From Cytauxzoon felis (lineage: Eukaryota > Apicomplexa > Aconoidasida > Piroplasmida > Theileriidae), in NCBI GenBank assembly GCA_020283715.1, contig JAIQCW010000169.1, positions 1 to 53,010 of the forward strand: 53,010 nucleotides of DNA. The letters are read 5' to 3'. A program made the position numbers and the translations under genes. Below the pieces are notes generated by a model. That model was not told the DNA's origin. It worked only from the letters and a program-made list of their open reading frames with translations, and searched no databases. This document shows positions 1,015 through 51,806 of this stretch, piece by piece. Each line of letters opens with the position of its first letter. Position 1 is the stretch's first letter.

Positions 1015-4000
1015 ATGGACTGTGATGGCCCATTCTTACGTATATTTGAGATACCTGAGAGTTTAGATTGGCATGGAGTATTACGTACACCGGATCCACA
1101 AGACAATGACAGATTGACTGCATCTGAAGCTGATGATCCGGAAGCATGGACAGATAGTGATGTAGATTTAGCTTTTAAAGTTATAACGGATATAACTTCT
1201 AGGAATGTATCGGATTCTTTGGAAATTTTAACAACAGATGGCTTTATAGCGGCGTTTAATTTGATACGTTATTATCCAAGCTTGGATAAGAAGCAACAAA
1301 TTTCGTTGTGTAAAACTTTGTCGTTATTATGTAGCAAGCTACAACTAATTGTTGATAAAATACCATCAACTCCGTACACATCTATGGATGATGTGGTTGG
1401 AAATATGGAATATTTGGACCTAGAAAAGAAGTTGTCTTCATGTAATAATGACTTTAGCAGATCTAAATCTCAGAATTACTGTGAGGATTCATTGATTAAT
1501 CCTAGGTATATTGGATTAGTATTACGTTCAATGATACATGTATGCGTATTTTTGGTATCATTGTGTTTTAAATTTGCTGCGACTACTCCCAAGGATTCAG
1601 ATGAGAAGAAGCCATTGAGTTTAGATTTATCACAATCCAAGAGACCTAAGAAGGGTAGAGTGAAGAAAAAGGATGATCCAACTGGTATTAATCCAATTGC
1701 TATTGAATTATTAGTTGATTCATTTGTAATTTTGACACATTTGAATATAAATACACCATTTTCTGGTGAATATGGTGGTAATGATCGTCCTTCTTCAAGT
1801 ATATTGAGGTTATCATTACAAACATTATTGAATATACTATCCTTTGAACATATCATCCATACATTCTCCACAAAGGTTGTTACATCAATCTCTAAAGTTA
1901 TGAAAACCAGTTTCTCTATCATGCAATCCAGAAAAATGACAAAGATAACTTCAAGAATGAGCATCATTCATCAAGATAATAATTCCACCGTTCCACATGA
2001 GGTTACCACCACCGTTGGTCTTGCAGACAGCTCTCCACCTGAGGTCCAATCCAACTCTCTTCCACTCGGCGTGGAGCCCTCTTCCAATTACCTATCTCTA
2101 AAGAGTAAAGCCACTCCCGGAGATCGTGGCGATGATGTAGATGTAGAGGATGTAACCTCAAGTGGAAAACCCGAGAGCGATCTACGGGAGCTTGAGGGGG
2201 AGATAAATAGAGAAGCTGACGGCAGGACTGGATCTCAAGTGGAGAGTCATATACAAGACGAAGGAAAGGTGTACAAGACTTCAGATGGTGAATCTATATA
2301 TAATGTAAATGGTGAAATGGATGATGAATGGTTATCAATGGTGATTGATGATATAAAAAAATCTTATTGTATTTATATAGCTGATAGTTTGGAATTGATT
2401 AGAGAAACATCTGTTCCTAATTTATTGATGAATGAGTTATTATTATCAGTGAAGGAGAATTTGATGTTACAATCATCAAATCAATTGAATAGTACTTCTG
2501 TACAATTGGAGTTTTCAAATATTGGTATATTTATAGAGCGTATATCAAGATTGATACCTGGTGTAATATTATCAAATTTGATGGAATTGAAGCAATTATT
2601 TGATATACCATCATATTCATTAAGGAAATCTATTATGGATTGTATAAAAAATTTGATAATATTGGGTAAATCTGATTATATAACTGATATTGATTATATG
2701 AAATTAATGAACAATTTATGTTCAAAGAAGAGGGATGATTTATTGAATATAATATTATCTAGACAATTGGATAGTTATATGTATGCTAGAGCTCATGTAT
2801 TGAAGATATTATATGATTTAATTGAATGTAATGCTTTACCTATTAGGATATATAATACTTGTTGTATTATTTCTTTATCAAGATTAATGGATAAATGTTC
2901 TCAAGTTAGACAAAGATCTTTAAGTTTATTTACTATAATTATTACTGATTTAACTAATGATAAATTATTATTTGAATTAGATTCTGAATCATTGAAGAAA
3001 TCTATAGAAGTTATAAAGACTAAATTATCAAAGATTAAATTCTATCAATCTTATCACAACTATAACATGGAAATTTCTCATGGACACTCCGAACGTAGTG
3101 AGGGAAGTTCCGAACAAAGTGAGGAGGGAAGTTTATCCGAACGTAGTGAGGAAGGAAGATCTAAAGAGCGTAGCGATGCGAAGAATTTTCCTCCCGAGGA
3201 TGGAAGGTTGAAGCATAGTGAGGAAAATAATTTCCCTCCTTCAGATGCGAAGAATTTTCCACCCGAGAATGGAAGTGGGAATGGAAGTAGTACAAGTGGG
3301 GATGGAAGGAATTTTCCTCTTTCAGATGCGAAGAATTTTCCTCTCTCGCAGAATGGAAGGAATTTTCCTCCCTCGGATGCAAGGTTGAAGTATAGTGAGG
3401 AAAATAATTTCCCTCCTTCAGATGCAAATCATCTTCCTCCCTTGGATGCAAATCATCTCCCTCCTTCGGATGCAAATCATCCTCCTCCCTCGGATGAAAA
3501 CAATTTCCATCCTTCGGATGAAAATTGTTCTCTTCCTTACAATATTGATGAGATAACTAGAGAACTTGGTGATGATTTAAAAGATAATATAACGGATGAA
3601 TTATTGGATGAAATGTACAAGAGATTAGAATTGATGTATGAAATGTATAATGATGCATTGGATATATCATTAAAGATTGAATTATCATTAGATTTAGCAT
3701 ATAAAATGTTATGTTCATCATATGAGATGGATTGTAAATCATCTATAAAATATATATCATCATGTTATATAATGGGTATTAAATATAGTAATAAATATTT
3801 GATAAAGATATGGGAATTATCATGGTCTAATAATCAAAGTATAGTAGAATGTGTAATGAATGAATTTAAAAATATATATTTTAATAATACAGATGATAAT
3901 AATATAATAATAAATAGATTAATAAATTTAATAAAAAATAATAATTTAATATGTTTATCATCAATAGAAAAAATATTTGAATTAAATATAATTAAAGATT

Positions 4001-6540
4001 TTATATATTTTAATAATTTAGATTTAATAATAGATATAATATTAAATAAATATATAAATGATGATATAATAATATCATTAATGATAATAAGAATAATATT
4101 ATGGTCATGTAGAAAATATAATACAAAAAAATGTATAAATATAAAAAATTTTGATAAATATAATATAATTATAAAAATTTATTAAATAAATCTATTAAAA
4201 ATTATAATATTTTATTTAGTGATTTATGTTTATTATTAAATTATGTTAATAATAGTAAAATTATAAATGAATTAATTTATTATTCTATTAAATTATTTAT
4301 TGATAATTTTGGTACATTGGATAAATATTATTTTAGAACATGTCAATGTATAATAGATTTATCATTTATACATTTGAATCATAATGAAATTATTTGGACA
4401 CGTATTATATTACAATTATTAGATAAATTATTTGATGATACTACACATTCTCCTACTCACTCTCAACTTCTTCCTCCACATCCTCTACATCTTCCTACAT
4501 TGCGGCAATTATCACAATTTATATTTATATGTGGGCATGTAGCAATTAAAATGGTATCTTCTATATATAAATTACATAATGAATTGAAAAATACTAGAGC
4601 TAATTTAGAAGTATATAATAATAATAATAAACAATCAAACAATACAATAGGTACAGCATCAAAAGATGAAATTGAAGCTGAAATTTTCGATAATCTAATC
4701 GAAAATAATCTTGTATGCAATAATCTATTAGGAGGACCACCACTCGAAATCATAATCACATCATTAAAAAATCCATACCTATTCATCAATCATCATAATC
4801 CACCTGAGGTTACCACCACCTCTTTTCCACTCGGCGTGGAGCCCTCTTCCAATTACCTATCCGTAAACGGTATAGCCACTCCCGGAGATCGTGGTGAAGG
4901 TTGTGATGAAGTTAGTGATGGATCATTGAAGGATAGTGATGGATCATCCATCATGGGAATGATGGAAGATGGTGCTAAGGATGTGTTGAATGTAACCTCA
5001 AGTGGAAAACCCGAGAGCGATCTACGGGAGCTGGAGGGGGAAGTAAATGGAAGAGGCTCCACGCCGAGTGGAAAGACCTCAGGTGGAGAAGCTGTCTGCA
5101 AGACGACATCAAGTGGAATAGTTAATGAAAATTGTGATGTTATTGATTCTTCTATGAATATTGATGAAAATATTAAAAATTCTATGGATGATGAATTATT
5201 GATATTGCGTACTGTATCTGCTATATCATTATGTAAATATGCTTGTGTATCTAAGAAATTTTGTAATCTTATTTTTGATGATTCTTTTACTATTCTTGAG
5301 GTTATTATATCATTATTACTTGATAAAAGTATTGATAAAATATGTACAGAAGAAGATGATATTTATTCTCCTTCATTAATTTCATCTCCTATTAATTATG
5401 GATATTATAATAATAATAAAATTAATTCACCCAATATAAATAATGGATTTAATGATTTATTATATTCTACACCCACTCCTCATCCTCATCCCCCTCTTCC
5501 TCTTCCTCCAACTTCATTATATGAAAATCAATTATTATCATGTTCATCTTCACTTCGTTGTACATTATTAATATGTTATGGTGATTTATTATGTAGACAT
5601 CCTAATATAATGGAACCTTGGAATGATAGAATATTTAATATATTAATGGATGATAAAGATGAATTAAAAGAGATAGGTATAATAGTATTTACACATTTAG
5701 TTATGAATGATATGATTAAACCTAAAGGTAAATTAATATATAATATGATGTATTTATTAATAGATAATAATAATAAAATAATAGAATTATCAAAAATATT
5801 TTTTTAATGAAATTAATAAAAAAAATTCTAATACTATTTATAATTGTTTACCAGAAATAATAACAACATTAGCTAATAATAAAAAAAAATATACTATAAA
5901 TAATAATATAAAAATATTAAATATAATATTAAATTTTATACATAAAGATAAACAATATGAATCAATAATAGAAAAAATATTTATAAGATTACAATCTATA
6001 ACTATAAATAATAAAATGGCTATAGCTATTTATATTAATATATTATTATATATTAATTATGATGATAAATGTATTAATAAATTAATACAATCATTATCAT
6101 TAATTAGACATTTAATTATAGAATCTAAACCTATTTTAGCTACATTATGTATTATTAATAAAAGGATTAAAAATAAATATACACCTTCATCATCTAATAA
6201 TAATACTTCTTTAGATGATAATAATAAATATAATGAATTAAATAATAAATTACAATTATATTTCACACAAAATCAATCTTATCTTAATACAATTTCATCT
6301 AAAGCTGATGATATCATACAAGAATTATTTAATGATAATAATAACATCTTTATTAATACACAAAATGATTATAATCTCAATATCAAACATGAAATACAAC
6401 CAATCAAAATTGAACAAAATAATACATTCAATAATACACCATCATTACATCATTATCAATCAGACTCAGATGATGAAAATTTCATACCAATCAATAAAAT
6501 CAATACCAATATCACAAGATTGTGTGAAAATACGCAATAA
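1015..6540 (+). CDS. Condensin complex subunit 1 (CND1/NCAPD2-like), with two frameshifts
   Basis: HEAT-repeat, non-SMC subunit of condensin, which compacts mitotic chromosomes. The best evidence is the C-terminal Cnd1 region (5540-5807): an LRCTLLICYGDL segment, then EPWNDRIF, then GIIVFTHLVMNDMIKPKG, in the order and spacing of the family. The reading frame breaks twice. Near 4171-4185 (run of five A) one base seems missing, and at 5799-5805 (run of seven T) there is one extra. In both cases the continuing frame encodes matching sequence up to the stop at 6540, so I treat 1015-6540 as one gene, about 1,840 codons. It carries two in-frame foldback-element insertions (1993-2244, 4800-5117) and a low-complexity Ser/Glu/Pro tract (3070-3537). 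Another element array begins 5 nt after the stop. Alternative: a decaying pseudogene, less likely because each frame stays conserved. Confidence 0.8.
1993..2244 (+). repeat. Foldback element copy 1, in-frame inside the condensin exon
   Basis: Starts with a CCAC(A)TGAGGT unit and ends with CTCAAGTGGA. It encodes the full peptide series, including [34 protein letters not shown] and READGRT, in the host frame and sense. The arms of this copy do not match: GGCGTGGAGCC on the left, GCTGACGGCAGG on the right. The hydrophilic insert lies between HEAT-rich regions, so it probably forms a surface loop. Confidence 0.85.
3070..3537 (+). repeat. Low-complexity tandem repeat tract in condensin
   Basis: Degenerate short peptide repeats: first SERSEE-type units, then alternating SDAKNFPP, SEENNFPP and SDANHLPP units. 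At DNA level these are 24-30 nt units of the form CCTTCAGATGCGAAGAATTT. The tract is unrelated to the foldback element and lies in the same open frame as the condensin gene. It looks like replication-slippage expansion of a disordered linker. Confidence 0.8.
4800..5117 (+). repeat. Foldback element copy 2, in-frame inside the condensin exon
   Basis: Sense and in frame with the host. The arms are exact inverted repeats: 4824-4843 against 5055-5074 (20 of 20 bases, core CTCGGCGTGGAGCC). Between the halves lies an extra spacer module encoding SDGSSIMGMMEDGAKDVLNV, shared with copies 3 and 4. The encoded halves are SSNYLSVNGIATPGDRG and [13 protein letters not shown]. Confidence 0.85.
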
Positions 6541-6544
6541 ATAC

Positions 6545-6937
6545 CCCACTTGAAGTACAATCCAACTCTCTTCCACTAGGCGTGGAGCCCTTTTTATTTA
6601 CATATCTCTAAAGAGTAAAGTCACTCCCAGAGATCGTGGTGAAGGTAGTGATGGATCATCCATCATGGGAATGATGGAAGATGGTGCTAAGGATGTGTTG
6701 AATGTAACCTCAAGTGGAAAACCCGTAGCTGATCTCAGGGAAGCGGAGGGGGAAGTAATTAGAGAAGGCACCCACGGCGAGTGGGAAAGAGAGGTAGATG
6801 TGTAGATGGAAGTAGTGTTAAGGATGTAACCTCAAGTGGAAAACCCGTAGCTGATCTCAGGGAAGCGAAGGGGGAAGTAATTAGAGAAGGCATCCACGGC
6901 AAGTGGCGAAGAGAGGTGGATTGGACCTCAGGTGTAG
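6545..6937 (+). repeat. Foldback element copy 3, with duplicated second half, after the condensin stop
   Basis: Begins 5 nt after the condensin stop codon. It has one first half and the SSIMGMMEDGAKDVLN spacer, then two tandem copies of the second half (PVADLREAEGEV and PVADLREAKGEV types), each preceded by AACCTCAAGTGGAAAA. Frames are broken, as expected outside a coding region. It ends with GGATTGGACCTCAGGTG. Confidence 0.85.
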
Positions 6938-7749: not shown

Positions 7750-8200
7750 ACCCAAGGTCCAATCCACTCCACCTGAGGTTACCTCTACCAATAGTCCAAC
7801 CTCTCTTCGTCCTGCCGTCAGCTTCTCTATTTACTTCCCCTTCCAGCTCCCGTAGATCGCTTCCAGGTAGTCCACCTGAGGTCCAGTACTATCTCATTTC
7901 CCATTGCATGGAGCTTCTCTATTTACCTCCCCCTCAAGCTCCCGTAGATCGCTCTCGGGTTCACTTCCACCTGAGGTTACAACCAACACATCCTTAGCAC
8001 CATCTTCCATCATTCCCATGATGGATGATCCATCACTACCTTCATCACTACCCTTCTCACTGCCACGATCTCCGGGAGTGGCTCTACTCTTTAGAGATAG
8101 GTAATTGGGAGAAGCCACCACGGCGAGTGGAAAACTGGTTGTAACCTCAGGTGGAGAGCTGACGGCAGGACGAAAGGAGGTGGTTGTAACCTCGAGTGGA
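7750..8200 (-). repeat. Foldback element copy 4 (compound), intergenic
   Basis: Largest copy, with sense on the minus strand. A first half is preserved ([17 protein letters not shown]), then the SSIMGMMEDGAKDVL spacer and a second half ([14 protein letters not shown]). A further partial second half plus CCACCTGAGGT units lie at the left. A 75-codon open frame persists although no host gene is present. It sits between the 3' ends of the gene at 7202 and the convergent PAT1-like gene. Confidence 0.85.
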
Positions 8201-8286
8201 ATGAGATATTTAACTAATCATCTTTTAATGATTATCGTATAAAATTCGTGTATATCATGTATTAATAATATTTATTTAGTGTATGA

Positions 8287-10641: not shown

Positions 10642-12790
10642 ATGTTAAGAGTTATTTCAGTTGTAATTTGTATTTTATTACAGATTTTTGTTAATAATGT
10701 AGTAGTAGTAGGTAAATTATATAATAAACCAATTAATGCTATCCTATCAAATCCAACGCCTGTATGTATGCATAGAGCATTCTTTAGTCCTAGTGATGGC
10801 GATAAAATTAAAGATCCTCAATTATATAAAAATAATGGCAGTCCAAAGAATAAATTAAATTTACCAAAAGTATTGAATAATGATACAAGGAAATTAATCG
10901 TAATTGCAGGTACTACCGCATTGGCTACAGCTGTATGCTATAAATATGTATCAAAAATGATCAATCATTATCTTTATGATCAATACATAACGAATGATGC
11001 ACCTGGTATATCAGAAATATTAGGACATGTCTTATATACAAATGTCAAAGATGATACACCATTAAAGACAAGTGCTCTAGATAAAATCATAAATATTATC
11101 ACAACTTCGCTCATGAAAATTGGATGGATTCGTGCAATATACAAACCCGGAATTAAAAGAATACCAATCGGTGAGGCCATTGATGATGACACCATCACTG
11201 CAGTCTACTTTCACTCTGCTAAAATAGATAAAATACTCAAGGTTTGTTTACGAACTTAAATAGAGATTGGTTTCTCATTGGTAGATCTCCGTTCATTCAC
11301 TACATTTCATTAATACATCTCATCTTGTATAGGAACAGGGTTTCACTCCATTTACAGATAAGCTAAAGAAGGTGTATGAATCGTTGAAGGGTAATGGTAA
11401 GAAATTCCAGGTAGTGTACATAAGCTTGGATGGTAATGGTATAGATTCTTATGATCATTTTAAAAACATGCCATGGTATTCATTACCATTTAATGATAGT
11501 AAAAGGGTTATGGATTTATGCCGTTTATATGATATTATGAGTATACCTAGTATAATATTATTGGATTCTGATGGTAATATTATAAATGATAGAGCTTTAT
11601 ATTTAATATTAAATAAACCAAATGATTATCCATGGAAGGTTGATAATGTATTGAATTTAATACCAAATAATTTAATGAATATAAATAATGAATTAATAAC
11701 ATTAGATAAATTAAATAATAAAATTATCGGGTTATATTTTAATGGGGGTTGGACAAAAGATAATAATGAATTTTCAAATAAATTATTAAATTATTATAAT
11801 AATTTAAATAAAAAAATTAATAATAAATTTGAAATAATTTATGTATCAAATGATAAAAATAATAATACATTTGATATAGAAATTAATAATAATAATTCTA
11901 ATTGGTTATATATACCATTCAATGATATACAATCTAGAAATCTATTACAACATTATTTCAATGTCACTTCATTACCATCACTTGTACTTATCGATCCTTA
12001 TGGTAATGTCATTACTAAAGATGGTAAATTCTATGTAGAAACTGATGTTAATGCTGATAATCTACCATTTGATGATTATCTACATAATAATAAAACACTT
12101 GTTGAAGATATAACCAATAATATCGATGGATTCGCTCATCATCCATCCATAATCGCCTTCACAGATAATTTTACACCACAAGAACAACAAATCATCGAAA
12201 CACAACTCAATGATGCAGCTAAATTACATCTACAACATCGCAAAGGAAAATTAATCAAATTTTTCATTTCCAAAACACCACATAAAAGAACCACAGCCAT
12301 CAAAACACTCTGTGGAGTCAACAATAACCAACCGAAAATCGTATGTATTTAACCACTTAATGAAATTGTAACATGTTGTTTCTACCCCAGGTCCAACTAC
12401 TGTCTACTCCACCTTCTCTCGTCCTGCCGTCAGCTCTTCTAATTATCTATCTCTAAAGAGTAAAGCCACTCCCGGTGATCGTGGCGGAAGTATAGTCACT
12501 GGACCTCAAGTGGAGAACCTGGAAGCGATCTACGGGAGCTGGAAGGGGAGGTAATTAGAAGAGCTGACGGCAGGACGACCTCGAGTGGGATAGAGAATTG
12601 TATTGGACATTCTCATAAAATATCCTACTTGTTCATTCATACATATATATTATAGGTAATCTTGGATTTATTGAGACAATCTGTTTATTACGATCCAAAG
12701 TTGGAGAATATAACTCAAGATTCTGTGCTCGAGTTTATTAATGATTATTACAAGGGGAAATTGAAACAAAGGAGATTAACTATACCATGA
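10642..12790 (+). CDS. Nucleoredoxin-like protein lacking CxxC, with signal and transit-like leader
   Basis: Three exons: 10642-11241, 11333-12340 and 12656-12790. Residues 1-24 form a hydrophobic signal peptide, followed by a basic Asn/Lys-rich stretch and a second hydrophobic segment (VIAGTTALATAVCYKYV). This suggests routing through the secretory path, perhaps to the apicoplast. Two thioredoxin-like domains follow. The first has FQVVYISLDGNGIDSYDHF, MPWYSLPF and MSIPSIILLDSDGN; the second has IIYVSND, WLYIPFND and TSLPSLVLIDPYGN. These are nucleoredoxin hallmarks. At both sites where WCxPC is expected there is none (YFHSAKIDKIL and YFNGGWTKDNNEF), so redox catalysis by the usual pair is unlikely. 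Intron 2 (12341-12655) is enlarged by a foldback-element copy. Confidence 0.8.
12385..12590 (+). repeat. Foldback element copy 5, inside a nucleoredoxin-like intron
   Basis: Lies wholly within intron 12341-12655. The arms form a 27-bp perfect inverted repeat, 12419-12445 against 12552-12578 (core CCTGCCGTCAGCTCTTC). The first half still reads [21 protein letters not shown], but the second half is out of frame, as expected in an intron. Confidence 0.85.
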
Positions 12791-14560: not shown

Positions 14561-15920
14561 ATGGAGGTGGATATTTTAGGGCCATTTAATTCTTTATCAC
14601 AGAATGATTTGGAATTATTGGAGGATGTAGTAACATCGTTCGGTGAGTCTGTGAATAATGTCTTAAAGACAAATTTTACACCTTCAAAAAAAATCGGAAT
14701 CGCAAATAGAATCAGTTGTAAAAAATGATAAGGATGATGGAGGTATAACAAAGAATCAGAGAATAGCATCCATTTTCTGTAGACAATGGCTGACTGGTGT
14801 ATTAAATTTATTGACACAGAAATTAGGCGAATTTACACCAGAAAATGAACCTGAAAAGCCATTGAATATACCAACTGAATCGGAATTTATAGATAGTAAT
14901 CCAGAATTTGAGAATTTGGATGAAGCTGTGATTGCAGTTGACCATGCAAGGATATGTGGAAATGGACAAATTGAAGTAGATTATGAATCAAATGAGATTG
15001 AAGAGAGTTATAAACCAAAATTGAGGGCAGATGAACTTATGCAGTTGATATTGCAAGGGAAGGAGACTGAGACATCAATACATAAGGATTTGGAGAAATT
15101 TTGGAAAGCCACACCAGCAATGTTGATGAATATTTTAAAACAAGTAAAAATTAATTCTATTAAGGATGATGATGTAGAATCTATAGTTCAGGGTATGGAT
15201 GATAAAACACCTAAAAATTTAGCAAATGGTATCGATAATAAGAATTTAAATAATGTACCAACCTCCGTAAAACCTCTTGTTACAACACTTTTATCTAATC
15301 TCTTACAATTTAGTTCAACCACTTCTCCACTTGAGGTTACAACCACTGTTCCTCTTGCAGAGAGCTCTTCCAATTATCTACCCGTAAACGGTAATGCCAC
15401 TCCCGGAGATCGTGTCGATGATGTAGGTGTAGAGGATAGGACCTCAAGTGGACTACCCGCAGCTGATCTCAGGGAAGCGGAGGGGGAAGTAAATAAAGGA
15501 GCTGACGGCAGGACTGGACCTCAGGTGGAATGCAGTCTGCAAGACAAAGTACCGTCATCTAGATCACAACTAGCTGATCTCAATGAAGTCGATATACAAG
15601 TAAATAGAGATACAACCTTGGGTGATATACAAGAGAGTGATAACGCAGATAATGACGTTATCACATCGATATCTATGGATGAGAATTCATTGGGTATATT
15701 ATCTAGGGTATTGAATGGTGATATTAAGTTATTGGATGATAATATAGAGGAATTATTATTGAATGATCCACAAGGTTTGATTGATTATGCATCTGAGATG
15801 GGTATAGTTGGTATGCCTAGGTTGATTGAATTATATAATAAAATTAAGAATGAGATTATTAATGTAGGGAAGTTATCAAAATTTTATTCTAAACTTGTTA
15901 CTGATTTGAATGATTTCTAA
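14561..15920 (+). CDS. Unrecognised protein with an in-frame foldback-element insertion
   Basis: Starts at ATG 14561. The frame shifts once in an eight-A run (14686-14693), and one A fewer makes a continuous protein of about 450 residues. No family recognised. The N-terminal part has acidic helical stretches and a segment NQRIASIFCRQWLTGVLNLL. The C-terminal 80 residues are helical and Leu-rich (DDNIEELLLNDPQGLIDYASEMG). No signal peptide or membrane span. An in-frame foldback element occupies 15327-15529. The stop codon (15918-15920) overlaps the stop of the convergent WDR7-like gene. Confidence 0.7.
15327..15529 (+). repeat. Foldback element copy 6, in-frame inside an exon
   Basis: Sense and in frame. 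It encodes PLEVTTTVPLAESSSNYLP, NATPGDR, then RTSSGLPAADLREAEGEV and ADGRTGPQVE. The arms differ (GCAGAGAGCTC left, GCTGACGGCAGG right), so the hairpin is imperfect. It ends GGACCTCAGGTGGA. Confidence 0.85.
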
Positions 15921-18900
15921 GCGCTTATCATATAACCTTTACCATCTTCCCTATGTAAAAACCATTTATCATTTGATTTATGTTGAATTTTTATACTTTG
16001 TAACTATATATATTAATATAATAATGTATAGAACTATTCAGTATACTCCATAAATATATGCCCAACTAACCTCTTTAAATGTACATGTTTTATTAATACT
16101 TTTTAATTTTACAATACGATATTCTTTCGAAGATGAATTTAATAATGATCCAATAAGACCTGATGGTGAACACTATATAAAATAAATATAATCCACCCCA
16201 TCATATATCAAATATACCTTCCATACAATAAAACATGGAATATTTATATAATACGCAGCTATCAAAGTACCAGAACTACCAAATGCTATCGATGCTATCT
16301 CACCTATATATTTATACATCACCAAAATAAGAATATCATCACTATACTACCTCCTTGTCCACCCGAGGTCTGATCCTCTTCTTCCACTCGCCGTGGTGGC
16401 CTTCTCTAATTACCTATCTCTAAAGAGTAGAGCCACTCCCTGAGATCGCTTCCAGGTTCCACCTGAGGTCCAATCCTTACCTTCACATCGCTACGATCTC
16501 TGGGAGTGGCTATACTCTTTAGAGATAACTAAATAGAAGAGCTGTCTGCAGGACCAAGAGAGTTGGATTGGACCTCAGGTGGAGGTGAATGGAGATAGTG
16601 TGACGGGATTTGTTATGTGAATTTGGACATACTTTGTTCACTGGTGAGTACTTTCCATCTGGTGGCGCTTCTGAGATCGTAGATTATGATATGTCCGAAT
16701 GTTGTACCGATTGCGAATCTTTGTGTATCTTGGTGGAAATCTACCATTGGCATATTTTTAACGAGATAAAATAATGCGGCTGTGGTGTTTTTAAGTATAT
16801 AAACTCTATTGAAGAAATTGTATATATGGTGATGTAATGATAACAAACCTTAAATTATAATCGGTAGGATCTAATAATTTAATTATTAAATTAACGAGAT
16901 CTGACATGTGATATATTGTAGCTTGTTTAAAATTCTTCATAAAATTCATTATTAATTTCATTGATGCTAATATATATGATTTACCCAACCTTTTCTTCCT
17001 ATATAGATTATAAATTAAATGGGGGAAAATAATTTATTAAACTATTTGAAGACTTGACATACTTTATAATCCATCCGATAATATCTAATACTAATTTAAT
17101 ATTTTCATAAAAGCATAATAATAATATTTTATTCCATGAATTAGAATATGTTAATTGATATTGACTTAATACACTTAAAAAGAAATAGGCATTATCTAAG
17201 CTGTGTCCCTATATAAAATTATAATAATCGGGTATACGATAAAAAATTTACCTCTACATGACAATCTGAACGATATAATACAGATAATTTATTATAACGT
17301 ATATAATCGGGTAATATTAATTGCTTTTCCAATGTAGAAAAATTCCATACTATACCAAATCCATCTTTAAACATATCCAAAAAATATAAGCGACTATTAT
17401 AATAACTATTTTGTACCATCAACTTCTTCTTTTTATCACCTTGAGGTATCATTAGGCTGATTAATTGATGTGCAACATAAGATGATAATGTATATTGCTT
17501 TACACCTATAATAATTAATAGTATAGATAATAATTCATTCATTGTATTCAAACAAACCTATTCTAATATGATTATTTAATGAATAAATATATTTTTGTAT
17601 GGCTATTGATGCGAGTATAATTAAAGCAGCTTCTTCTTCCCAATTCTATATATTATATTTAAATTATATAATTTTCATACCTTTGGTGGATTAGTATTAT
17701 TATGATTGATTGTATTGAGTGGGCATGATTTAAGACATGATCCACATTTAGTACCAAATGTAAATGTTATTGAATTACAATCACATATATAAATTTGTGT
17801 ATAAATGTTATTCTTCATTTTATGCGACTGTGAATTGTAGATATATGACAATGATCTTGACGTATGTAAGTTTAATTCATCTTGACCAAGACTGCTTATT
17901 GCCTTATTCAATACTAAAGAAAGGCAATTGAATGATGTTTTAGATGTACAAATAAGCATTAATCTAGCAATTAACCAGATATCAACATTGGATGATATAT
18001 AATTATTATTAAATGCCAATGTACGGTATAACTCTTGTAATATCATACATGTAGCAAAATATGGATTAATTGTAGTCATATCAAGTGAATTAAATAGAAT
18101 ATATGGATTATTATATGGCGTTAATTTTTTAATATTATAATTACAATCAATAATTGGATATGTATTACATCTCTTTACTTTACATCTATTATCATTTCGC
18201 CCTTCAGCATCAAATATTTTATAATTATACTTCCTACGATCATATATAAATGTATTACAGTCCTTCATTATTAAAGGTATGGATATTGTCCCATGCGGTA
18301 TACCCATATAACAATGTATTGGTGATGATAGACTATTCATTATTTTTTTATCATATTCATTATTATTTGTTAACATCGTTAATATCGGATATATTATCAA
18401 AGGAACAACCTTAGTTATCAATTCTGTCGGCTTTTTTACAATATATTTACTCTTTAATATCAATTTCATATTTTCCTTCTTACCCCACTTTCCCCATTTT
18501 TTATATTTTAATAAATTAATCACAAAATATCTTTTATGATTAATTGATTTAAAATTTTTAAATAAATTATAATTATAACAAAATTTCTTTTTAAATTGGA
18601 AATGTAAAAATGATAAATAAATAGAAGATGATGTAGTTGATTTTTTATAATATTTTTCAGAAAATAATGCCATTGATAAAAGATAATTAGGCATTTTACA
18701 CTTAATTTGTTTCAAATAATTATCAAATAAATCATCAGATCTACTTAAAAATAATGATAAAGTATCAACAAAACTCATTGATGATTTCAATTTCTCATCA
18801 ACATTCAATTTAGTATTAGATAATAATGCCTGTCTATATACATCCAATTGTGGTAAACGCCTAATAAATCTACCCACTGATAATTTCCATATCAATATAT

Positions 18901-21900
18901 CGGAACATGTCAATACAAATAATAAATCTCTCTCCATATTCACCACTGAACGTACTATATCAATACCTATCAAATAACTCGTACCTTCCATACGATTATA
19001 ACCACTACAATCCTTACAATCAAATATATAATCCGATAATGTCACACATAAATCATCCATAAATTTTAAATCACCCAAATTGTCCATATTATAATTACGA
19101 TGTTCACCCAACTCGAAGTTACCTCTACTGTAGGCCTTATTCAATGCACCTTGTCTTCCACTTGCCGTTCCACTCGAGGTCATTCCACTAGGCGTGGCGC
19201 CTTCTCTATTTAGTTGTCCCTCCGCTTCCCTGAGATCAGCTACGGGTTTTCCACTTGAGGTTACATTCAACACATCCTTAGCACCATCTTCGCCACGATC
19301 TCTGGGAGTGGCTATACCCTTCAGGGATAGGTAATTAAAAGAGCTCTCTGCAAGAGGAAGAGAGTTGGATTGGACCTCAGGTGGAAAGGCCTCCACGGCA
19401 GTGGGATCAGAGGTTGTAACCTCAGGTGGAGAGGCAGAACCTCTAATGGAAGACAATACTGGACATTCTGTGGTATGTGTAACTGAATTGGAGGTGATAT
19501 CATTGAAATGTACATTAATATGAGATGTATTACGAGTTGTGTTTTGTCCAGAGGTTGTAGATTCATTATCTGAATAGATAAATCGATCGGTAATTTGAAT
19601 AAAATTTGATGAATGTGTTGTTATACACGATTGTATTAATTGCTGTATATTAATATAAATTAATGAACCGGAATCATCTAATGCTATAAATGAATCCTCT
19701 ATCAATATAAGCTCTAAATCTGTTAATTTATCCCCATTTGAAACAATAGATTTTAATGTATATATAGATTTTATGGGGTAATTGTGTTTATTAATTAATA
19801 GAAGAACTTTGAAAGTATCTAATGAGTAGATAATTAATTCTCCATGTTTTAATGCGATAATAAGATATTTTGTACCAAGCAGGTAAAAAATCAATGAATT
19901 TGTACATGTATACAATGGTTTTATATTCGACAATATATCATCCGATAGTTCATTAAATAATATTATATATTGCCTATACTTCCATTTATAATTTATATTA
20001 TTTATTACCCCATTTATAATATATGGGGATGTCATATATCTTATATCATAATTTATTAAATTTATACATTGTAATATACCATTAGATAATAATTCTATCT
20101 TATATAATACACCATCTCTTTCAAATACACAAGTATTCGATACATTCGATGGATTCCTAAATAATCTACTCAGATCCAATTTATATTTACCCCATTGTTT
20201 ATATCCATCCCTGCTATAGTATACCTTATTCAAATCCATTAATAAATATGTCAACATATAATTATCATCAACATATATCTCAACATCATTAAATATATCC
20301 ATATCAAATATTTTATAAAAACTCTCAAATGAACGATCATTACCACTTAGCCAATGTTCATCAGCAAACCTATCTTTTTCATTACATTCGAGGTTGACTC
20401 CACCTGAGATCAATCCATCTTTCCCATTGCATGGAGCTTCTCCACTTGAGGTCGTCTTGCAGACAGCTTCTCTATTTACTTCCCCCTCCGCTTCCCTGAG
20501 ATCAGCTACGGGTTCCACCTGAGATCTAGTACTACTCTTTATTCCATCTACACCTTCACCTTCGCCACGATCTCCGGGAGTGGCATTACCGTTTACGGGG
20601 AGGTAATTGGAAGAGCTGACGGCAGGATGGACCTCGGGTGGAAAGGCCTCCACAGCGAGTGGAACGGTGGAAGTGATTGGAATTAAATTGGATTGGACTT
20701 CGGCATATGGTCCATTTATGGGACATGTCAATGATGTATATGATGAGAGATATGGACATTTTGTAATATAAGAGGGTGGATCTTGGATAGGTGGATATAC
20801 AAATGATGTTTCTTTAGTTTTATTATACCTTTTTACAAATGGTGGTATTTTATGTGTAGATAACAACTTGAATTGATAATTAGAATTATTATTATTATTA
20901 GTTGGTATATCAAATATTGAAATGTTTCCATCAATGGTCCAAGCTATTAACTTCCCAGTATTACCCAATCTGATACATTTGAATCCTATCCATTGTACAA
21001 ATTTATTATTATATTGAGATATCAATTCAGATACACGTATTAATTCAGAATCTGAATAGATCCAAATGTATATCCTGTAATCAGCTAATAGAAATATGAA
21101 ATTATCATAAACTGATATAGATTTTGATGATACATTTAATAATTCTTCTCTAAATTCTCTTAATTTTACAGTAGATTTAGTTTTAATATTCTCAGAAGAA
21201 ATATATTTATCCCAATCAGTTATAACTTTAATGGAACCATTAAATGATCCATAATTATTTTTATATTTAAATATGCTATCTGTCAAATCCCATAATATCA
21301 TCTCATTATTATTTAATAATAATAAGAATAATAAATTAGGTATATTATTATTTTCATATTTCCATGTCGGATATGGTGATGATGATATTTTTATTATCCT
21401 AGGTCCATTGTAATTAAAATAATCTGCCATATTATTATCATCTACTGTAGTATCATTTGATGTAGATTGTATATTATCATTCAATTTAATAATGTCTAAG
21501 GATTCTACTAATTTTATATTCCATGAATCTATTATATTTACACGATAATCACCTACTAAAGCTATAAATCTACGATCTGGTAAAACATTTATCCTATTTA
21601 TAGGAAATGGTGGACCTTTAACACGATGTAAACATCTATAATTCAATAATGACCATATATATATAGTATTATCTTTATGTAATGATATCAATGTATCTTC
21701 ACCAATCTCTATACCATTAAATATATAAGATTCACCTTTTCCTTTTATACTAGCTGTTGAAGCCATCATATAAACATGTTCCTCTGATCTCTTAGAATCA
21801 TATTCGGGTATTCCACCTGAGGTCGTCCTGCCGTCAGCTCTTCTATTTATTTCCCCCTTCGCTTCCCTGAGATCAGCTACGGGTTCCACCTGAGGTCTAG

Positions 21901-22522
21901 TACTACTCTTCATTCGATCTCCAACCTTATCTTCGCCACGATCTCCGGGAGTGGCATTACCGTTTACGGGTAGATAATTGGAAGAGCTCTCTGCAAGAGG
22001 AATAGACGTGGATTGGACCTCAGGTGGTGGAGAGCTGTCTGAAGGACGAAGAAAATATGAAGTGGAAGATAGTGATTGGACTTCGGGTGTAGGCTGAAGT
22101 GATGTTGGACCTTCTGTGGAAGAGCTCTTAGATGGTGAGTTGAATATGGCATCCCTGAGATCAGTTTCAGTGTAATTTCCATCCTTCAACATATATAATG
22201 GATAGTCTCCTAATGCATATTCTACTTGTAATACTGGAAATGCAATAGTATTATTGTTTGATATCAACATATAAGTAGGTTTCAATTTTATATCATATCT
22301 ACTCTCATATAATCTTTTAAATGATCTCGTTGACATTAGTATATTTTCATTCTTCAATATAACATCTCTACCAGATATTATATTCCATAATATTATTACA
22401 CCTTGTCTAGTACCTGTTGCTAATATACCACGCTCATTGTTTACTGATATACATGTCACATCAAAATGTATATCCGATTCCGGCATTAAACATACAGCCG
22501 TATTTACACAATGATTCTCCAT
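15917..22522 (-). CDS. WD-repeat protein like WDR7 / rabconnectin-3 beta
   Basis: Large gene of about nine exons: one exon of about 4.8 kb (22522 to about 17680), then short exons to the stop at 15917-15919. N-terminal WD-type repeats include VTCISVNNERGILATGTRQGVIILWNI. The C-terminal exons encode MPMVDFHQDTQRFAIGTTFG followed by HIIIYDLRSATRWKVL and then EIASIAFGSSGTLIAAY. This pattern matches the C-terminal blades of WDR7, the partner of DmX in regulating V-ATPase assembly. Three in-frame foldback elements lie in the large exon and one lies in an intron near the 3' end (inside about 16330-16640). If the assignment holds, the window holds both a V-ATPase regulator and the V-ATPase proteolipid. 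Identity is fair; membership of a large WD40 family is firm. Confidence 0.7.
16359..16583. repeat. Foldback element copy 7, inside a WDR7-like intron
   Basis: Starts CCACCCGAGGTC and ends GGATTGGACCTCAGGTGGA. It contains first-half sequence on both strands (CTATCTCTAAAGAGTAGAGCC forward and its reverse form CTATACTCTTTAGAGATA), so two halves face each other and the whole is nearly palindromic. Confidence 0.8.
19105..19430 (-). repeat. Foldback element copy 8, in-frame inside the WDR7-like exon
   Basis: Sense relative to the host gene and in frame. It encodes [53 protein letters not shown] and ATPSGMTSSG. The arms are not complementary in this copy. Confidence 0.85.
20388..20705 (-). repeat. 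Foldback element copy 9, in-frame inside the WDR7-like exon
   Basis: Sense and in frame. The encoded peptide includes AVSSSNYLPVNGNATPGDRG, then STRSQVEPVADLREAEGEV, VCKTTSSGEAPCNGKDG. The arm types are mixed (CCGTCAGCTC and GCAGACAGC, plus a GCATGGAGC type). Confidence 0.85.
21813..22090 (-). repeat. Foldback element copy 10, in-frame inside the WDR7-like exon
   Basis: Sense and in frame. It encodes PPPEVQSTSIPLAESSSNYL, NATPGDRGEDK, RPQVEPVADLREAKGEINRR and ADGRTTSGG. The SSNYL half is highly similar to copy 9, including the NGNATPGDRG variant. Confidence 0.85.
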
Positions 22523-22787
22523 ATTTATTTAATTTATTATAGAACTAACATTTTTAGCTTCAATTTATATACAAAATAATTATAATTATACATTAATATT
22601 ACAAAATTCTACAAATTTAATTTATTTTTAAACAAGACAACATTAACTATACATTATATCAACTACCAACTATATCCATATCTAAACACTCCATATCTAC
22701 TCACCCACTAAATTATCACTAAAAAATATTTTTTTTACCTTCATTCTTATATAATTTAAATAATAATATACACCAATTTAAAAATGG

Positions 22788-22858
22788 TGCATCTGCCGGG
22801 AATCGAACCCGGGTCACCTCGATGGCAACGAGGTATTCTACCACTAGACCACAGATGC
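22788..22858 (-). tRNA. tRNA-Gly(GCC)
   Basis: Complete 71-nt cloverleaf on the minus strand, no intron. The 7-bp acceptor stem is GCATCTG/CAGATGC. The anticodon loop is TTGCCAT on stem CCTCG/CGAGG, giving anticodon GCC. The T arm is CCGGGTTCGATTCCCGG, and the discriminator base is A. It sits between the starts of the WDR7-like gene and the POLE3-like gene. Confidence 0.97.
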
Positions 22859-32786: not shown

Positions 32787-35700
32787 TTAGAAATAGCTGT
32801 ATTTAATGTGAATAAAAAATATGAACAAACAAACCTCTATGAATATAAATCCGATTAAATTACGTACAGCTCTTAATGAAGTTGGAGATGTGTCTTTTTT
32901 GTAACGCTTTTGTAATTCAATTTTAAATTTATATGAATTGTTTGTAAATTCTTGTACATTATAATCTATTTGATCCATCATCGAACCCTAATTAAATTAA
33001 AATATATAAATATCGGGCGCATGCTAAATCATAAAATACAAACCTGTTCAACAATCATTGTAGATAATTGTGTATAAAGTCCTTTAAGATCTTCAACAGT
33101 AATTGCAATTTGTTGAAGACGCTAATAATAAATATAAAACACATTTTATTAACTCACATTAGTTCTATCCACGATGTTATCATTTGTTATTTGAATTGTA
33201 TCTTGAATATCATTCTCAATATTATAAATCTATATTTATGTGTATTAATGTAAGAAATATGGAGGCAGTGAGTACATAACCTCAGGTGGATTACCCGTAG
33301 CTGATCTCAGGGAAGCGGAGGGGGAGATAATTAGAAGAGCCTCCACGGTGAGTGGGAAGACAAGATATATTAGAAAGACAGTAGGATTGGACCTCATATG
33401 GAAGGTAATCATAGAGGGGATGACGGGTGAATATAAAATGTTATGGAGACATGCAATTGATGAATAAATTCAAATACAAATCTTCAGTAAACATGAAAAA
33501 TACCATAAATACAAGAAACATAAAACCAAATATCGTTCCGGCATCATCATTAAAAGTATCTCCACATCTACCGCTCACTTGCGCACCCATACCACCACCG
33601 AATCCAACAGCTTCCATAAATTCTTGAACCCAGGCGAATACTACACATAGAACTCCAGTTCTAAATACACTTGCCCTGAAGTATTTACCAATGCGACCAT
33701 TGGGAAAATGCATCATAGAGAAGAAGATGTATATGCATATTATATACGGAATGAAAAATAACCATGTAGCGTGATAGATTGCATACAAATGTTCTTTACC
33801 ATTTTTTTCATATTCATAATTCATCCAAAGTCTACCGGGGCCTTTGTTACAAATTTGAGTTATGGCAAATGCTATGTGGGGTGTAGCAGAAATAGCCTGG
33901 ATCCATAATTCAATCTTTTTACCATCAAATGGATCATCAACTAATTGATAGGGTGATATAGCAGGATAGAAGAAATAGACAGTACCTAATGAGAGGGCTA
34001 CCAAAAAAATCGGGGACCAGTGTATGATGTGATATTTTTGACCATCGGTACCAGCACCGAATAAAAGAGCAAGGCCTGAGTATTTTGAAGTATCACTTAA
34101 ATTTTCAACTGATGCGGTATAACCTGTATCATTTTTAAGTGCACTTTTAATTGGACCGAGTTTTTGTGCAAATGCGGTGGTAATAGTATCTGGGTTTTCA
34201 CTACCAAGACCACTTGCAGCGTTCCATGTATAAGTTACACCACTCTTCTTACGTTCATACCATTTATTATTAGTTGTTCCACCACTTTCAGATAAACATA
34301 TCAACAGAGGCCTTTTAAGGTCAGGGTTATTATTTTTCAGTTCAAAATATACATATACACCTCCACCAGCATTAAATGTAAAACCATTAAGCACACTTTG
34401 GGAAATACCTTTTGTCACTTGATTATGTATCGTTATGCGATTTATACTGAAAGTAGAGCCAGTAGAAGCACGATGTTTAAAACCTTTAAATTTGTTTCCA
34501 CTATCAGGACCTACTGCTGTAACAGTAACTTGTTTATTACCAGTACGATATTTAATTAGATCATTACTCTTTGCAGCATAATCCAATTTCACAACAAGTT
34601 CTGGTTTAGTATAACCTTTATCACCAGTAAGTTGTTGACTAATGCCTTGGAGTTTATTTTTAAGTGCAGCATCAATTTTATTATTAGCCTCAGCCGGTTT
34701 TATAGAAGTATATTGAGTAGATACATCTGTCCATGTTGTTCCACTTGTACGTTGATACCATTTATTATTTTGATTAGCACCACCATCTTGGGATAAACAT
34801 ATTAAGAGAGGTTTCTCGCGTTTATCATCTGAATCAGCCTTATGATAATATACAAATACATATTGTTTACCGGTAAATCCGGTACCATTATTTAACTCTT
34901 GTATACCTTCTATTGCGTGCCCATGTATAGTAATACGATTTATCTTTTTAGTGCTAGAAGCGGGAAGGGTATGTTTAAAACCTTTAAATTTAGCAGGACT
35001 TTCTTGAGTTACTGGTGTAACAGTAATTTCATGATCTTGAGTTCCAGGACGCGCTGTGTATCGACCACTATTTTCCGTATCATCCTTTTCAAGCTTAACT
35101 TCGTATTTATCGATGATTTTACCAAATTCAGTTTCAAGTTCACTAGCAACATTATCTTCCTCAGGACCTAAAGTTATATCTGTTACTCGCGTCCACTCAT
35201 TCCCTCTCTTGTAATATGTCTGATTACCAACACCTTTATAAATACAAACAATAAATGGGAACTCGTGATGTTGATCATCTGCCTTATAATATACATAGAC
35301 TGCTTCAACAGATGTATTGTACTCTGTTATACCATTCAATGAAAAGCCATTATGTTTAACTGAACCTAATGTGAATTGAGTAGTACGTGTATCCTTAGGT
35401 GAATGCTTATATCTAATATAACCGGTTGGTACTTTGGTAGAGGCAGCGTTCCCCTCCTCTTTAGTAACATTAATTTGAGGTCCATCAGCACTTGCTTTAT
35501 AATCTTTAGTATTTTCGCCTTGTGATGGAATCTCTTTAATATTAATTTCATATTTATCTTTGAGTTCATTAAGTTTATTTGCAAGAGGCTTACCAACTGT
35601 GCCAGCATCCTGAGATTCTGGATCTACAGTTATACTAGAATCATATGTCCATGTCTGACCTCTCGTATAATATGTCTGACCGCTATTTGTCTTAACACAA

Positions 35701-37745: not shown

Positions 37746-37880
37746 TCTTGCAGACAGCTCTCCATCTGAGGTCCAATCCACCTCTCCTTCCACTCGCCGT
37801 GGTGGCTCTTCCAATTACCTATCTCTAAAGAGTATAGCCACTCCCAGAGATCGTGGACGAAGTATAGGTCGGAACTTTAG
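37746..37880 (+). repeat. Foldback element copy 13, intergenic
   Basis: First half only: TTGCAGACAGCTCTCCATCT, a CTCGCCGTGGTGGCTCTTCC arm, CTATCTCTAAAGAGTATAGC and CTCCCAGAGATCGTGG. Lies between the start of syntaxin-16 and the 3' end of the uL13 gene. The rest of this 474-nt spacer has no feature I can name. Confidence 0.8.
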
Positions 37881-39206: not shown

Positions 39207-39510
39207 TCCACTCGCCGTTCCACCTGAGGTCACAACCTTACTTTCCTCTTGCAGAGAGCTTCTTCTATTTACTTCCCCCTCAAACTCCCGGTGATCGTTC
39301 TCGGGTTCTCCACTTGAGGTCCAGTACTATTAATCATTCCACTTCCGTCTCCACCACTACCTTCTCCACGATCTCTGGGAGTGGCTATACTCTTTAGAGA
39401 TAGGTAATTAGAAGAGGCACCACGCCTAGTGGCATGACCTCGAGTGGAGAGCTGTCTGCAAGACAAATAGAGGTGGTGTAGAGAAGAGTAAGATTGGACC
39501 CCAAGTGGAG
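39207..39510 (-). repeat. Foldback element copy 14, just past the arginyl-tRNA synthetase stop
   Basis: Both halves are present, sense on the minus strand, within an open frame of 94 codons ([26 protein letters not shown]). The left arm is a GCAGAGAGC type, the right a CACCACGCCTAGTGG type, so the arms do not match. It begins 65 nt past the synthetase stop codon. Confidence 0.8.
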
Positions 39511-39574: not shown

Positions 39575-46187
<6,613 letters not shown>

Positions 46188-47099: not shown

Positions 47100-47452
47100 A
47101 AAGCGTAAATTTAATTCTGGATGAAAATTTTAATCTAGACACTATAACCGACGTTTCGAGCTCCAATATTAATTTTAACATCACATAAACCCCGATTTAC
47201 TGGTTAAACTTAATTTCCTTCAATTTCATTACATAATCCATCAAATGTGTAGATAATTTCACACATAAGACGACACTGATGTCGTGCGACGGCGACCGCC
47301 ACCATATAGTACCACACAATACCATGGAGATGATCGAATTCCTGTTATGATGAGTTTGTTCATATTTAATAACTGAATTATAGCATTCATAAAACTACCT
47401 TCAATTTACATTGTTTCATTCACTAATATTCTACTATCACTGCCTTCAGTGA
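47100..47452. other. Divergent promoter region
   Basis: Between the leader-bearing protein (minus) and the histone stem-loop-binding protein (plus). Less AT-rich patches near 47260-47330. No gene recognised. Confidence 0.5.
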
Positions 47453-48022: not shown

Positions 48023-48059
48023 ATTTTTTAAAATTGTGGGGTCTATTTATAGGAGAAAA

Positions 48060-48434: not shown

Positions 48435-48500
48435 TGACATACACAAATCTACATTTCATGCGATGTATAGGCAAGTCTTCATTTACAGATAGGTCTTCCA

Positions 48501-48757
48501 ACCTTGGTACAATCCTACTCTCCTTCCAATCCCACTCTCTTCATCCTGCCGTCAGCTCTTCTATTTATCTCCCCTTCCAGCTCCCGTGGATCGCTTCCAG
48601 GTATTCCACTTCCACTTGAGGTTACATCCTTTACACCCTCACTTCTGCCACGATCTCCGGGAGTGGCTCTACTCTTTAGAGATAGGTAATTAGAAGAGCT
48701 GACGGCAGGATGAAGAGAGTGGGATTGGACCTCAAGTGGAGAGCTGTCTGCAAGACC
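48501..48757 (-). repeat. Foldback element copy 19, 3' of member D
   Basis: Best-preserved foldback: 48531-48563 and 48691-48723 are a perfect 33-bp inverted repeat (core CATCCTGCCGTCAGCTCTTC). Minus-strand sense: [52 protein letters not shown] in an 82-codon open frame. It lies 95 nt beyond the stop of member D, between that gene and uL14. Confidence 0.9.
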
Positions 48758-48851
48758 AACCATGGAGTCAAGTTGGATGGAGGGTGTAACCTAGGATAGA
48801 GCTTCATAGAGAAGATAGTTACGGATTTATCTTAATGGGGTCCATTTTAAA

Positions 48852-50702: not shown

Positions 50703-50744
50703 CTTCCTTTATCCTATTTGTAATGACTCCATCTCTCCTTCCCT

Positions 50745-50773
50745 TCAAATTATCCCCCTCCCGTTATTTAAAG
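50745..50773 (-). promoter_or_regulatory. Conserved upstream motif of member D
   Basis: Plus-strand TCAAATTATCCCCCTCCCGT then TATTTAAAG, 43-71 nt before ATG 50702. Closest match to the motif of member A. Confidence 0.6.
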
Positions 50774-50896
50774 AAATAATAGAGGAGTGTAAAAATAAGA
50801 TCACAAGTTTCAAGTTCTTCAATGGTAGACAAGACATATATGGAACTCTAAAACAAAACAACTAACTATAAATCAATAAAATTGCAAATGATATTA

Positions 50897-51806
50897 CTAG
50901 GAAGATCCTCCATTATAAGGTGTACAAAGGCCAGCTGGTGTTTTCATTGTAACAACAAGACCAATGATAAGACCATAAAGTGCTAATGTTTCAGCAAAAA
51001 CAAGTGTAAGAATCATACCAACAAATAATCTGGTCTGTTGAGCATTAGCCCTAACACCAGCATCACCAATTATACCAATTGCCAAACCAGCTGCCTATAA
51101 TATATATATATATATAACGAACGAAGTATGAGCAAGTCGTTGTCTACCTCCACCTGAGGCCCAATCCAACTCTCGTTGTCTTGCAGACGGCTCTTCCAAT
51201 TACCTATCTCTAAAGAGTAGAGCCACTCCCAGAGATCGTGGCGAAACTATAGTCACTGGACCTCAAGTGGAACCTGTAAGCGACCTACGGGAGCTGGAAG
51301 GGGAGCTAAATAGAAGAGCCGTCTGCAAGACGATATCAGGTGGAATGGCGAATGGAAGAGTAGGATTGGACCTCAGGTGGAACTGTCATCGGTAGTAATT
51401 TGCGGGGTATAAACTTACAAGACAGCTTAATCCTACGATAAGACCACCGGCAAGGTGTGAATATCCAGCGAAAGCTGAATACTTTGAAGGTTCACCAACT
51501 ATAGATGTTGAATGACAAATGTAATGATGAAACATACATGATGATGTAATAACAATTGATATAATAAGACCATAGATACCTAAAATACCGGCCATAATGA
51601 CGGGTACAATAGATCTCATTACTAAATCTGGGCGCATAACACCCATTGAAGAAATACCGACACCACTACGAGCTGTACCATATGCGGCTCCGAGATCTGA
51701 AATGATTATTGTAAGTGTATATGTAAGTTAACGTACTGGAGAAGACCATAGCGCAAACAACGCCCATTAGGCCAAAAAACGCCGAATGTGGATCACATAC
51801 AACCAT
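50897..51806 (-). CDS. V-ATPase proteolipid subunit c
   Basis: Three exons: 51806-51737, 51696-51419 and 51094-50897. Four membrane helices in two hairpins: [55 protein letters not shown] joined to [20 protein letters not shown], and [20 protein letters not shown] with the proton-carrying Glu. The length of about 178 residues is normal for subunit c. It forms the proton-conducting rotor of V-ATPase in acidic organelles. Intron 2 (51095-51418, 324 nt) is enlarged by a foldback-element copy; intron 1 is only 40 nt. Confidence 0.95.
51150..51381 (+). repeat. Foldback element copy 20, complete unit inside a V-ATPase c intron
   Basis: Probably a complete single unit. Ends CCACCTGAGGCCCAATCC and GGATTGGACCTCAGGTGG (18-bp terminal inverted repeat, one mismatch). 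The inner arms are an exact 19-bp inverted repeat, 51178-51196 against 51313-51331 (GTCTTGCAGACGGCTCTTC). Antisense to the host gene. This copy is the best guide to the element's borders. Confidence 0.88.

Follow-up and report, generated by a model that had tools for sequence, protein, structure and literature searches.

How does one palindromic repeat come to lie inside the exons of several unrelated genes, each time on the coding strand and each time in the same reading frame? The question is raised by a contig of the piroplasm Cytauxzoon felis (JAIQCW010000169.1 of assembly GCA_020283715.1, positions 1 to 53,010; the whole of this 53,010-nt stretch is called the window here), which has a guanine-plus-cytosine (GC) content of 31.7% and comes from a genome of 8.62 Mb in 181 contigs; the C. 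felis genome in print is given as 361 contigs, 31.8% GC and 9.1 Mb (PMC3748084). We conclude with considerable confidence that the repeat is a dispersed, non-autonomous foldback element, and that exons tolerate it in the only sense frame that it has open, a hydrophilic one. To judge from the reading frames, translation of the exonic copies is very probable and would add hydrophilic, disorder-prone stretches of ~60-110 residues to proteins that are otherwise ordinary.

An earlier note, made from the letters of the window alone, had counted 20 copies of one element there, and masking of frequent 12-mers gave 19 intervals of at least 40 bp. The same note had placed six copies in exons, all sense and in one frame, adding peptides of about 65-105 residues; all six were recovered with anchor motifs in agreement, and their masked lengths correspond to 79-108 residues. 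Its gene names fared less evenly, the condensin assignment being borne out (Cnd1, PF12717, E = 4.2e-11) and the WDR7-like one drawing beta-propeller matches below the cut-off; for its third host, gene 14561 (ORF 14667-15920), no Pfam match was found at E <= 0.001. The six copies, with their host open reading frames (ORFs) and the frame of the element that is read (frame 0), are:

2009..2246, plus strand: exonic copy 1, in ORF 1009-4185, the first part of the condensin-like gene; sense, frame 0
4798..5120, plus strand: exonic copy 2, in ORF 4164-5807, with the Cnd1 domain downstream; sense, frame 0
15322..15582, plus strand: exonic copy in ORF 14667-15920, a gene of unknown family; sense, frame 0
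19151..19433, minus strand: exonic copy in the WDR7-like ORF 17675-22528(-), residues ~1031-1126; sense, frame 0; a gap in Theileria equi
20397..20643, minus strand: exonic copy in the WDR7-like ORF, residues ~628-711; sense, frame 0; a gap in T. equi
21805..22085, minus strand: exonic copy in the WDR7-like ORF, residues ~147-242; sense, frame 0; a gap in T. equi

Beyond the window, the element was characterized in a 303-kb sample (3.5% of the genome) consisting of the window and parts of contigs C4, C8, C1 and C37, of which C8 and C37 were named by one element search and C4 and C1 were among the first listed in another, a choice to be kept in mind when the sample is scaled up. A 19-base core of the element matched the whole genome 2,849 times at up to two mismatches (1,412 forward, 1,437 reverse), with no match for the reversed-pattern control, and the sample 114 times at up to three mismatches, at a density similar to the genome-wide count. 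The copy number is thus roughly 3,000 per genome. Masking gave 179 intervals in the sample, covering 11.7% of it, with a GC content of 50-51% against 24-31% for the remaining sequence and a median element span of 257 bp where both ends could be located. Read in sense, a full copy opens with TCCACNNGAGGT, a spacer, a module and the SSNYL block, followed by CCACTCCC(G/A)GAGATCGTGG, and continues through a linker of variable length, a second conserved block and another module to ACCTCNNGTGGA; the two ends TCCACNNGAGGT and ACCTCNNGTGGA, both located in 83 copies, are terminal inverted repeats. A block-2 partner lay within 150 nt of 93 of the 113 block-1 matches, and in 87 of these 93 copies the left arm aligns more closely with the reverse-complemented right arm than with either control, as expected of the foldback structure that had been proposed from the window; with a median arm-to-arm identity of 69% over 62 nt, the arms are diverged inverted repeats. 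End modules are drawn from a single pool of about six, opposite ends using reverse complements, and left- and right-arm modules combine independently (chi-square p 0.93; 21 of 71 pairs matching, 17.6 expected). Modules therefore seem to be exchanged and not kept paired, their free combination points to frequent exchange between copies, and compensatory pairing between left- and right-arm modules was rejected.

Some further properties of the element may be set beside this anatomy. Exonic copies more often carry the CCCGTAAACGG inner-hairpin variant in block 1 (11 of 28, against 9 of 85 other copies; Fisher p 0.0013), and their linker between the blocks is longer (median 57 versus 39 nt, p 9e-5), several of them with a SDGSSIMGMMEDGAKDV stretch. 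RNA structure was considered as the selected feature and rejected: when the window was scanned with Rfam at gathering thresholds, no match fell on the element, and the folding energies of two copies are not unusual against shuffles (z -0.25 and z -1.03). The same scan shows no tRNA- or other RNA-derived body of the kind found in short interspersed nuclear elements on any copy in the window; the tRNA gene that it reports (22788-22858, minus strand) lies outside the element, just upstream of the WDR7-like ORF. A second repeated family occurs on C4 and C8 (for example C4:35337-35505 and C4:69483-69815), with 73-82% identity over ~450 bp.

The frame and orientation of exonic copies, tabulated across the sample, follow a strict rule. 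After removal of an interval too near the end of a piece, 178 of the 179 masked intervals were usable, and 138 of these are at least 100 bp long and carry an anchor motif; the other 40, shorter or without anchors, may belong to other repeats. Under a score-free rule, by which an open frame must span the copy and 150 nt on each side, 29 of the 138 anchored copies are read through, all 29 in sense frame 0 and none in another sense frame or antisense (32 read-through intervals among the 178 as a whole, the 29 being those within the anchored set). When adjacent 150-nt flanks were instead scored for coding potential, 26 of the 178 intervals were read through, every sense anchor of the 25 anchored ones giving the same frame, and no interval lying between two same-strand coding flanks failed to be read through (0 of 178). 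Inside coding ORFs the element points in the direction of the gene in 28 cases and against it in none, a count that leaves aside two read-through copies outside that ORF set, from which the ORF of a GTPase is missing. Between tandem genes, by comparison, 35 copies have the same and 31 the opposite orientation, which indicates that insertion itself is independent of the direction of transcription. Cases in which a coding frame merely enters a copy and stops there are evenly divided (3 sense, 3 antisense), while a coding-like frame that emerges from the downstream side of a copy, seen in five weak cases where no ATG could be located, is sense each time. The distance from block to block is a multiple of three in all 25 exonic copies measured, against 30 of 68 other copies.

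If the frame is kept, are the amino acids kept as well? We compared exonic changes in two fixed-length blocks with expectations derived from the mutation spectrum of the non-exonic copies. Nonsynonymous changes numbered 69 in block 1 and 76 in block 2 (72.4 and 64.4 expected) and synonymous changes 44 and 31 (33.6 and 26.1 expected), and the ratio of the two, pooled over blocks, does not differ between exonic and other copies (p 0.56). Divergence from the consensus is likewise close, at 0.081 for exonic and 0.076 for other copies in block 1 and 0.072 and 0.062 in block 2. Constraint on the amino acids of exonic copies thus appears weak or absent, with openness of the frame being what is kept. 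What the open frame encodes is distinctive in its composition: 20% of the residues of the sense insert peptide are hydrophobic, compared with 36-37% in the antisense frames and 37% in the host proteins, and the peptide scores as disorder-prone. Taken together, these results suggest that exons tolerate the element because a soluble linker is what its sense frame encodes. The selection for frame and sense proposed in the earlier note is supported, with two refinements: selection acts on frame, stops and orientation and shows little or no sign of acting on the amino acids, and the frame rule is largely a consequence of there being a single open sense frame.

Orthologues from related species lack the insert wherever we looked. 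For the WDR7-like ORF the only match listed is its T. equi orthologue, annotated as hypothetical, in which all three inserts correspond to gaps; T. equi is also without some non-element sequence near these insert sites. Glutamate-cysteine ligase, for which T. equi ranks first by E-value, followed by T. orientalis and after it by an unnamed sequence and Babesia, carries an insert at residues 264-355, between two parts of one enzyme fold, and has 155 residues (230-384) at a place where the yeast enzyme has 29. None of ten aligned orthologues, eight of them from named piroplasms, has the element peptide. In the T. orientalis enzyme this loop holds a long insertion of a different, unrelated kind, and the other piroplasms are variable in length there, indicating that the insertion site is a length-variable loop and not a catalytic core. 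Nor is the peptide a known ancestral protein domain: when one insert was compared with 5.8 billion public proteins, there was no match at E <= 10 among 128 word-sharing candidates of 0.55-1.75 times the query length.

Two alternatives concern the origin of the frame rule. The first is that avoidance of stop codons suffices, with no additional selection on orientation. For the sense strand this holds, because sense frames 1 and 2 are closed by stops: each is open in 0 of 109 non-exonic copies, while frame 0 is wholly open in 22. Among the 29 exonic copies, moreover, only two contain an open antisense frame, so that well-kept copies may seldom offer one. Against this, open antisense frames are roughly as frequent as open sense frames in the 109 non-exonic copies (26 versus 22; 3 versus 10 among the 65 copies of at least 200 bp), and although 20 of those 26 sit in copies of 100-150 bp, a length class without an exonic member, a length-matched expectation still gives ~8 antisense survivors among 29, where none is seen (P ~5e-5; 0.002 at >=200 bp; both from small bins with pseudocounts). 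Stop avoidance alone may therefore not explain the missing antisense copies, and we consider it an unlikely, if arguable, account of the whole rule. That the exons came first, the intergenic copies being debris of an ancient coding repeat, would fit the same 22 wholly open non-exonic copies, set against none in either of the other sense frames. Against it, the non-exonic copies are no more diverged from the consensus than the exonic ones, they occur in both orientations and the peptide is present in no relative examined, making this origin barely credible.

Other alternatives concern what becomes of an exonic copy. It could behave as an introner, creating an intron that is spliced out with no peptide left in the protein. 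The element does end with sequence resembling AG|GT (GAG|GTTACA and CTCAG|GTGG), hairpin-type introners are described in another alveolate, Amoebophrya (PMC7789003), and the genome probably does have introns, to judge from the condensin-like gene, which spans overlapping ORFs in different frames. An intron, however, needs neither an open frame nor a length divisible by three nor a fixed frame, whereas all 29 read-through copies are stop-free, all 25 spacers are multiples of three and no interval between adjacent same-strand coding flanks lacks read-through, a zero to which looser scanning leaves some possible exceptions; we regard this account as very improbable. The insert could conversely be a selected peptide module, kept for a function such as binding, antigenic decoy or localization. 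One peptide family does recur in many proteins with a distinctive hydrophilic make-up, and in block 1 the exonic copies have an excess of third-position changes (55 of 115, versus 116 of 331 in the other copies; p 0.019). Yet this excess is not repeated in block 2 (p 0.72), nonsynonymous changes occur at the number expected, and the host proteins with assignable names have no evident common theme, and we therefore give a selected function little credence.

The reading that we favour, an element tolerated in its open sense frame, has to be held against several observations that weigh against it, the block 1 excess among them. Exonic copies might yet be spliced out or go untranslated. Our gene models consist of ORFs and a hexamer score, and in 7 of the 29 read-through copies one 90-nt flank scores below 0. 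The read-through rule picks open copies by construction, so that the weight of the argument lies in the zero counts elsewhere and in the intergenic control. With flanks shortened to 45 nt, 31 copies are open in sense frame 0 and 4 antisense, and two of the 29 also have a short (15-base) anchor on the opposite strand. Looser scanning of the flanks finds coding-like sequence of one strand on both sides of 50 of the 178 intervals; at least 4 belong to the 29, and the rest are intronic, disrupting or intergenic without being distinguishable, the scan being too noisy to use. Mobility, too, is something that we infer. Four or more matching bases, as a target-site duplication would leave, flank 5 of 83 copies, against ~8.8 in shuffles, with ends so ragged that duplications of 2-3 bases would be invisible, and self-comparison of the sample gave no empty site. 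The transposase profiles PF13358, PF00665, PF10551 and PF13359 have no match in the genome while their controls were positive; PF13843 and PF05699 have none either, with a control that was also silent.

Other traces of movement were sought as well. A single ORF with a reverse-transcriptase domain (RVT_1) was found in the genome, at C56:73693-74436 within an open frame of 1,010 aa, and may be telomerase. A viral origin was rejected, as viral contigs contain 0 exact matches to one element pattern. A candidate disrupted paralogue at 48.7 kb on C4 that looked like a clean insertion is actually a duplicate broken off at a half element: the Tpr-like duplicates C4:48689-48794 and C4:22099-22433 are 99.1% identical over 335 bp (3 differences), and one ends where an antisense half element starts, where the other continues. 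A near-identical duplicate cut in this way points to a recent rearrangement at the element. In the window, the minus-strand multi-copy paralogues at 33441-36646, 40573-42120, 43618-45588 and 48852-50708 look similar to the multigene family that is called Tpr in Theileria (PMC10730637).

The course of events that we propose is that the element would land between genes in both orientations, and in exons too, where purifying selection would purge insertions in other orientations or frames. Sense frame-0 copies would persist, selection keeping their frame open and acting little or not on their amino acids. Spread would most likely take place in trans through an unrecognised enzyme, or else by hairpin-dependent copying combined with frequent exchange of arms.

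How common exonic copies are can be estimated from the sample, in which 22 of 118 long coding ORFs carry a read-through insert, those of glutamate-cysteine ligase and a Snf2 ATPase included, and two of them being parts of the condensin-like gene; the GTPase ORF is an additional host beyond the 118. In this NOG1-like GTPase the P-loop and switch I are 305 residues apart, part of them not masked as element, compared with 4 in archaeal PH1320, and the only match to the NOG1 domain (PF06858) in the genome is in a separate gene on C75. A Snf2-type ATPase ORF has two inserts, which lie on either side of its second helicase lobe, and further host ORFs have Nop52, G-patch, LCCL and metallophosphatase domains. 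Among the 19 host ORFs listed, 8 are without a Pfam match at the thresholds used, and 4, which cross a tile border, were scanned in part. A protein-level search of the genome with one insert gave 157 matches, and for the 150 of them listed, spread across many contigs, the surrounding stop-free frame reaches at least 250 residues in 93 cases, at least 500 in 70 and at least 1,000 in 40; these figures are rows, several per ORF, and an open query favours open copies. By arithmetic from the counts, the exonic density of the element is 0.21-0.27 of the non-coding density, where survival of one orientation-frame in six after random insertion would give at most 0.17 (1/6). Either compatible insertions seem nearly always to be tolerated, or the loss of copies is faster between genes, or the element inserts unevenly. 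Scaling up 29 copies per 303 kb from 3.5% of the genome, we extrapolate to ~800 exonic copies genome-wide.

The remaining intervals of the window are listed here for completeness; apart from them, 24-base-spaced tandem repeats within the condensin-like ORF (3220-3533) are apparently unrelated to the element.

6558..6936, plus strand: non-exonic copy directly 3' of the condensin stop codon, with two right arms in tandem
7755..8204, minus strand: non-exonic compound copy
12419..12588, plus strand: non-exonic copy
16358..16585, no strand assigned: non-exonic copy, apparently two left-type arms, inverted and facing each other (families D3/D5 against D4)
33277..33396, plus strand: right-arm fragment
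37746..37856, plus strand: left-arm fragment
39207..39467, minus strand: non-exonic copy
40441..40495, minus strand: right-arm fragment
42193..42341, plus strand: copy overlapping in antisense the 3' end of ORF 42185-42916(-) and supplying its C-terminus
43423..43508, minus strand: right-arm fragment
45655..45723, plus strand: right-arm fragment
48510..48760, minus strand: non-exonic copy
51147..51383, plus strand: non-exonic copy

A bolder reading, which we put forward tentatively and at somewhat short of even chances, is that a nuclear mobile element has evolved to be harmless when translated, all of its modules sharing the stop-free hydrophilic frame, and has entered some hundreds of proteins. 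Were it true, about one long ORF in five would carry the peptide, by extrapolation from the sample, and exons would be a normal habitat for an element in a phylum thought to be without class II transposons. The genome also offers a natural experiment on how far proteins, enzymes included, tolerate an insertion of 60-110 residues, and it raises the question of how an element of 3,000 copies can spread without a recognisable transposase. Shared repeat peptides in unrelated proteins are in addition a warning for gene models and for work on antigens or drug targets, which they may affect.

Several known systems share features with this element. Miniature inverted-repeat transposable elements (MITEs) and foldback elements of eukaryotes are likewise small, enzyme-less and of high copy number, with inverted terminal arms; here, by contrast, no target-site duplication was detected, none of the six transposase families searched for was found and exons are an ordinary habitat. 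Our finding conflicts with a survey of 64 apicomplexan genomes, according to which C. felis, T. parva, T. annulata and T. orientalis are devoid of transposable elements and Apicomplexa of class II elements, MITE candidates having been discarded as likely false positives and models matching multi-copy exons filtered out (PMC9141347). The introners of Amoebophrya, Micromonas and Aureococcus are also dispersed hairpin elements in protist genes (PMC7789003), but they are spliced out, whereas the element of C. felis keeps its frame and stop-free sequence. Coding palindromes in nematomorph mitochondria are inverted repeats in translated genes as well (PMC6649704), with arms that encode conserved parts of native proteins and not, as here, an insert that is dispersed and that the examined orthologues lack. 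Enterobacterial RU and ERIC repeats and Coxiella MITEs, small mobile repeats too, also occur inside ORFs (PMC2759123, PMC5896051, PMC10969869); they are bacterial, and are not known to follow a genome-wide frame rule.

The nearest analogue is the one that the earlier note had named, the Rickettsia palindromic element (RPE), and the resemblance is upheld by the in-frame palindrome in many unrelated ORFs (29 of 29 read-through copies; 22 of 118 ORFs). RPEs too are short palindromic repeats lying in and between genes, inserted in-frame and encoding a conserved peptide, with 44 insertions in R. conorii (PMC10969869). The element of C. felis would work like an RPE, its kinship being one of behaviour: an exact scan of a prokaryotic genome collection with one 34-mer of the element gave 0 matches, a scan by which distant relatives would be missed. 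In the open-access literature, outside which subscription papers mostly fall, we recognised no report of this element, nor a case of comparable scale in any nuclear eukaryotic genome; the C. felis genome paper uses the word 'repeat' once, of an antigen gene with a tandem repeat, and palindrome, mobile element and transposon not at all. Compared with RPEs, the element is longer, with two diverged arms and swappable modules, and is present in ~3,000 copies in a nuclear eukaryotic genome. What is new here is this scale, the nuclear eukaryotic setting, the modular arms and quantitative evidence of selection on frame and orientation in which the amino acids are hardly selected.

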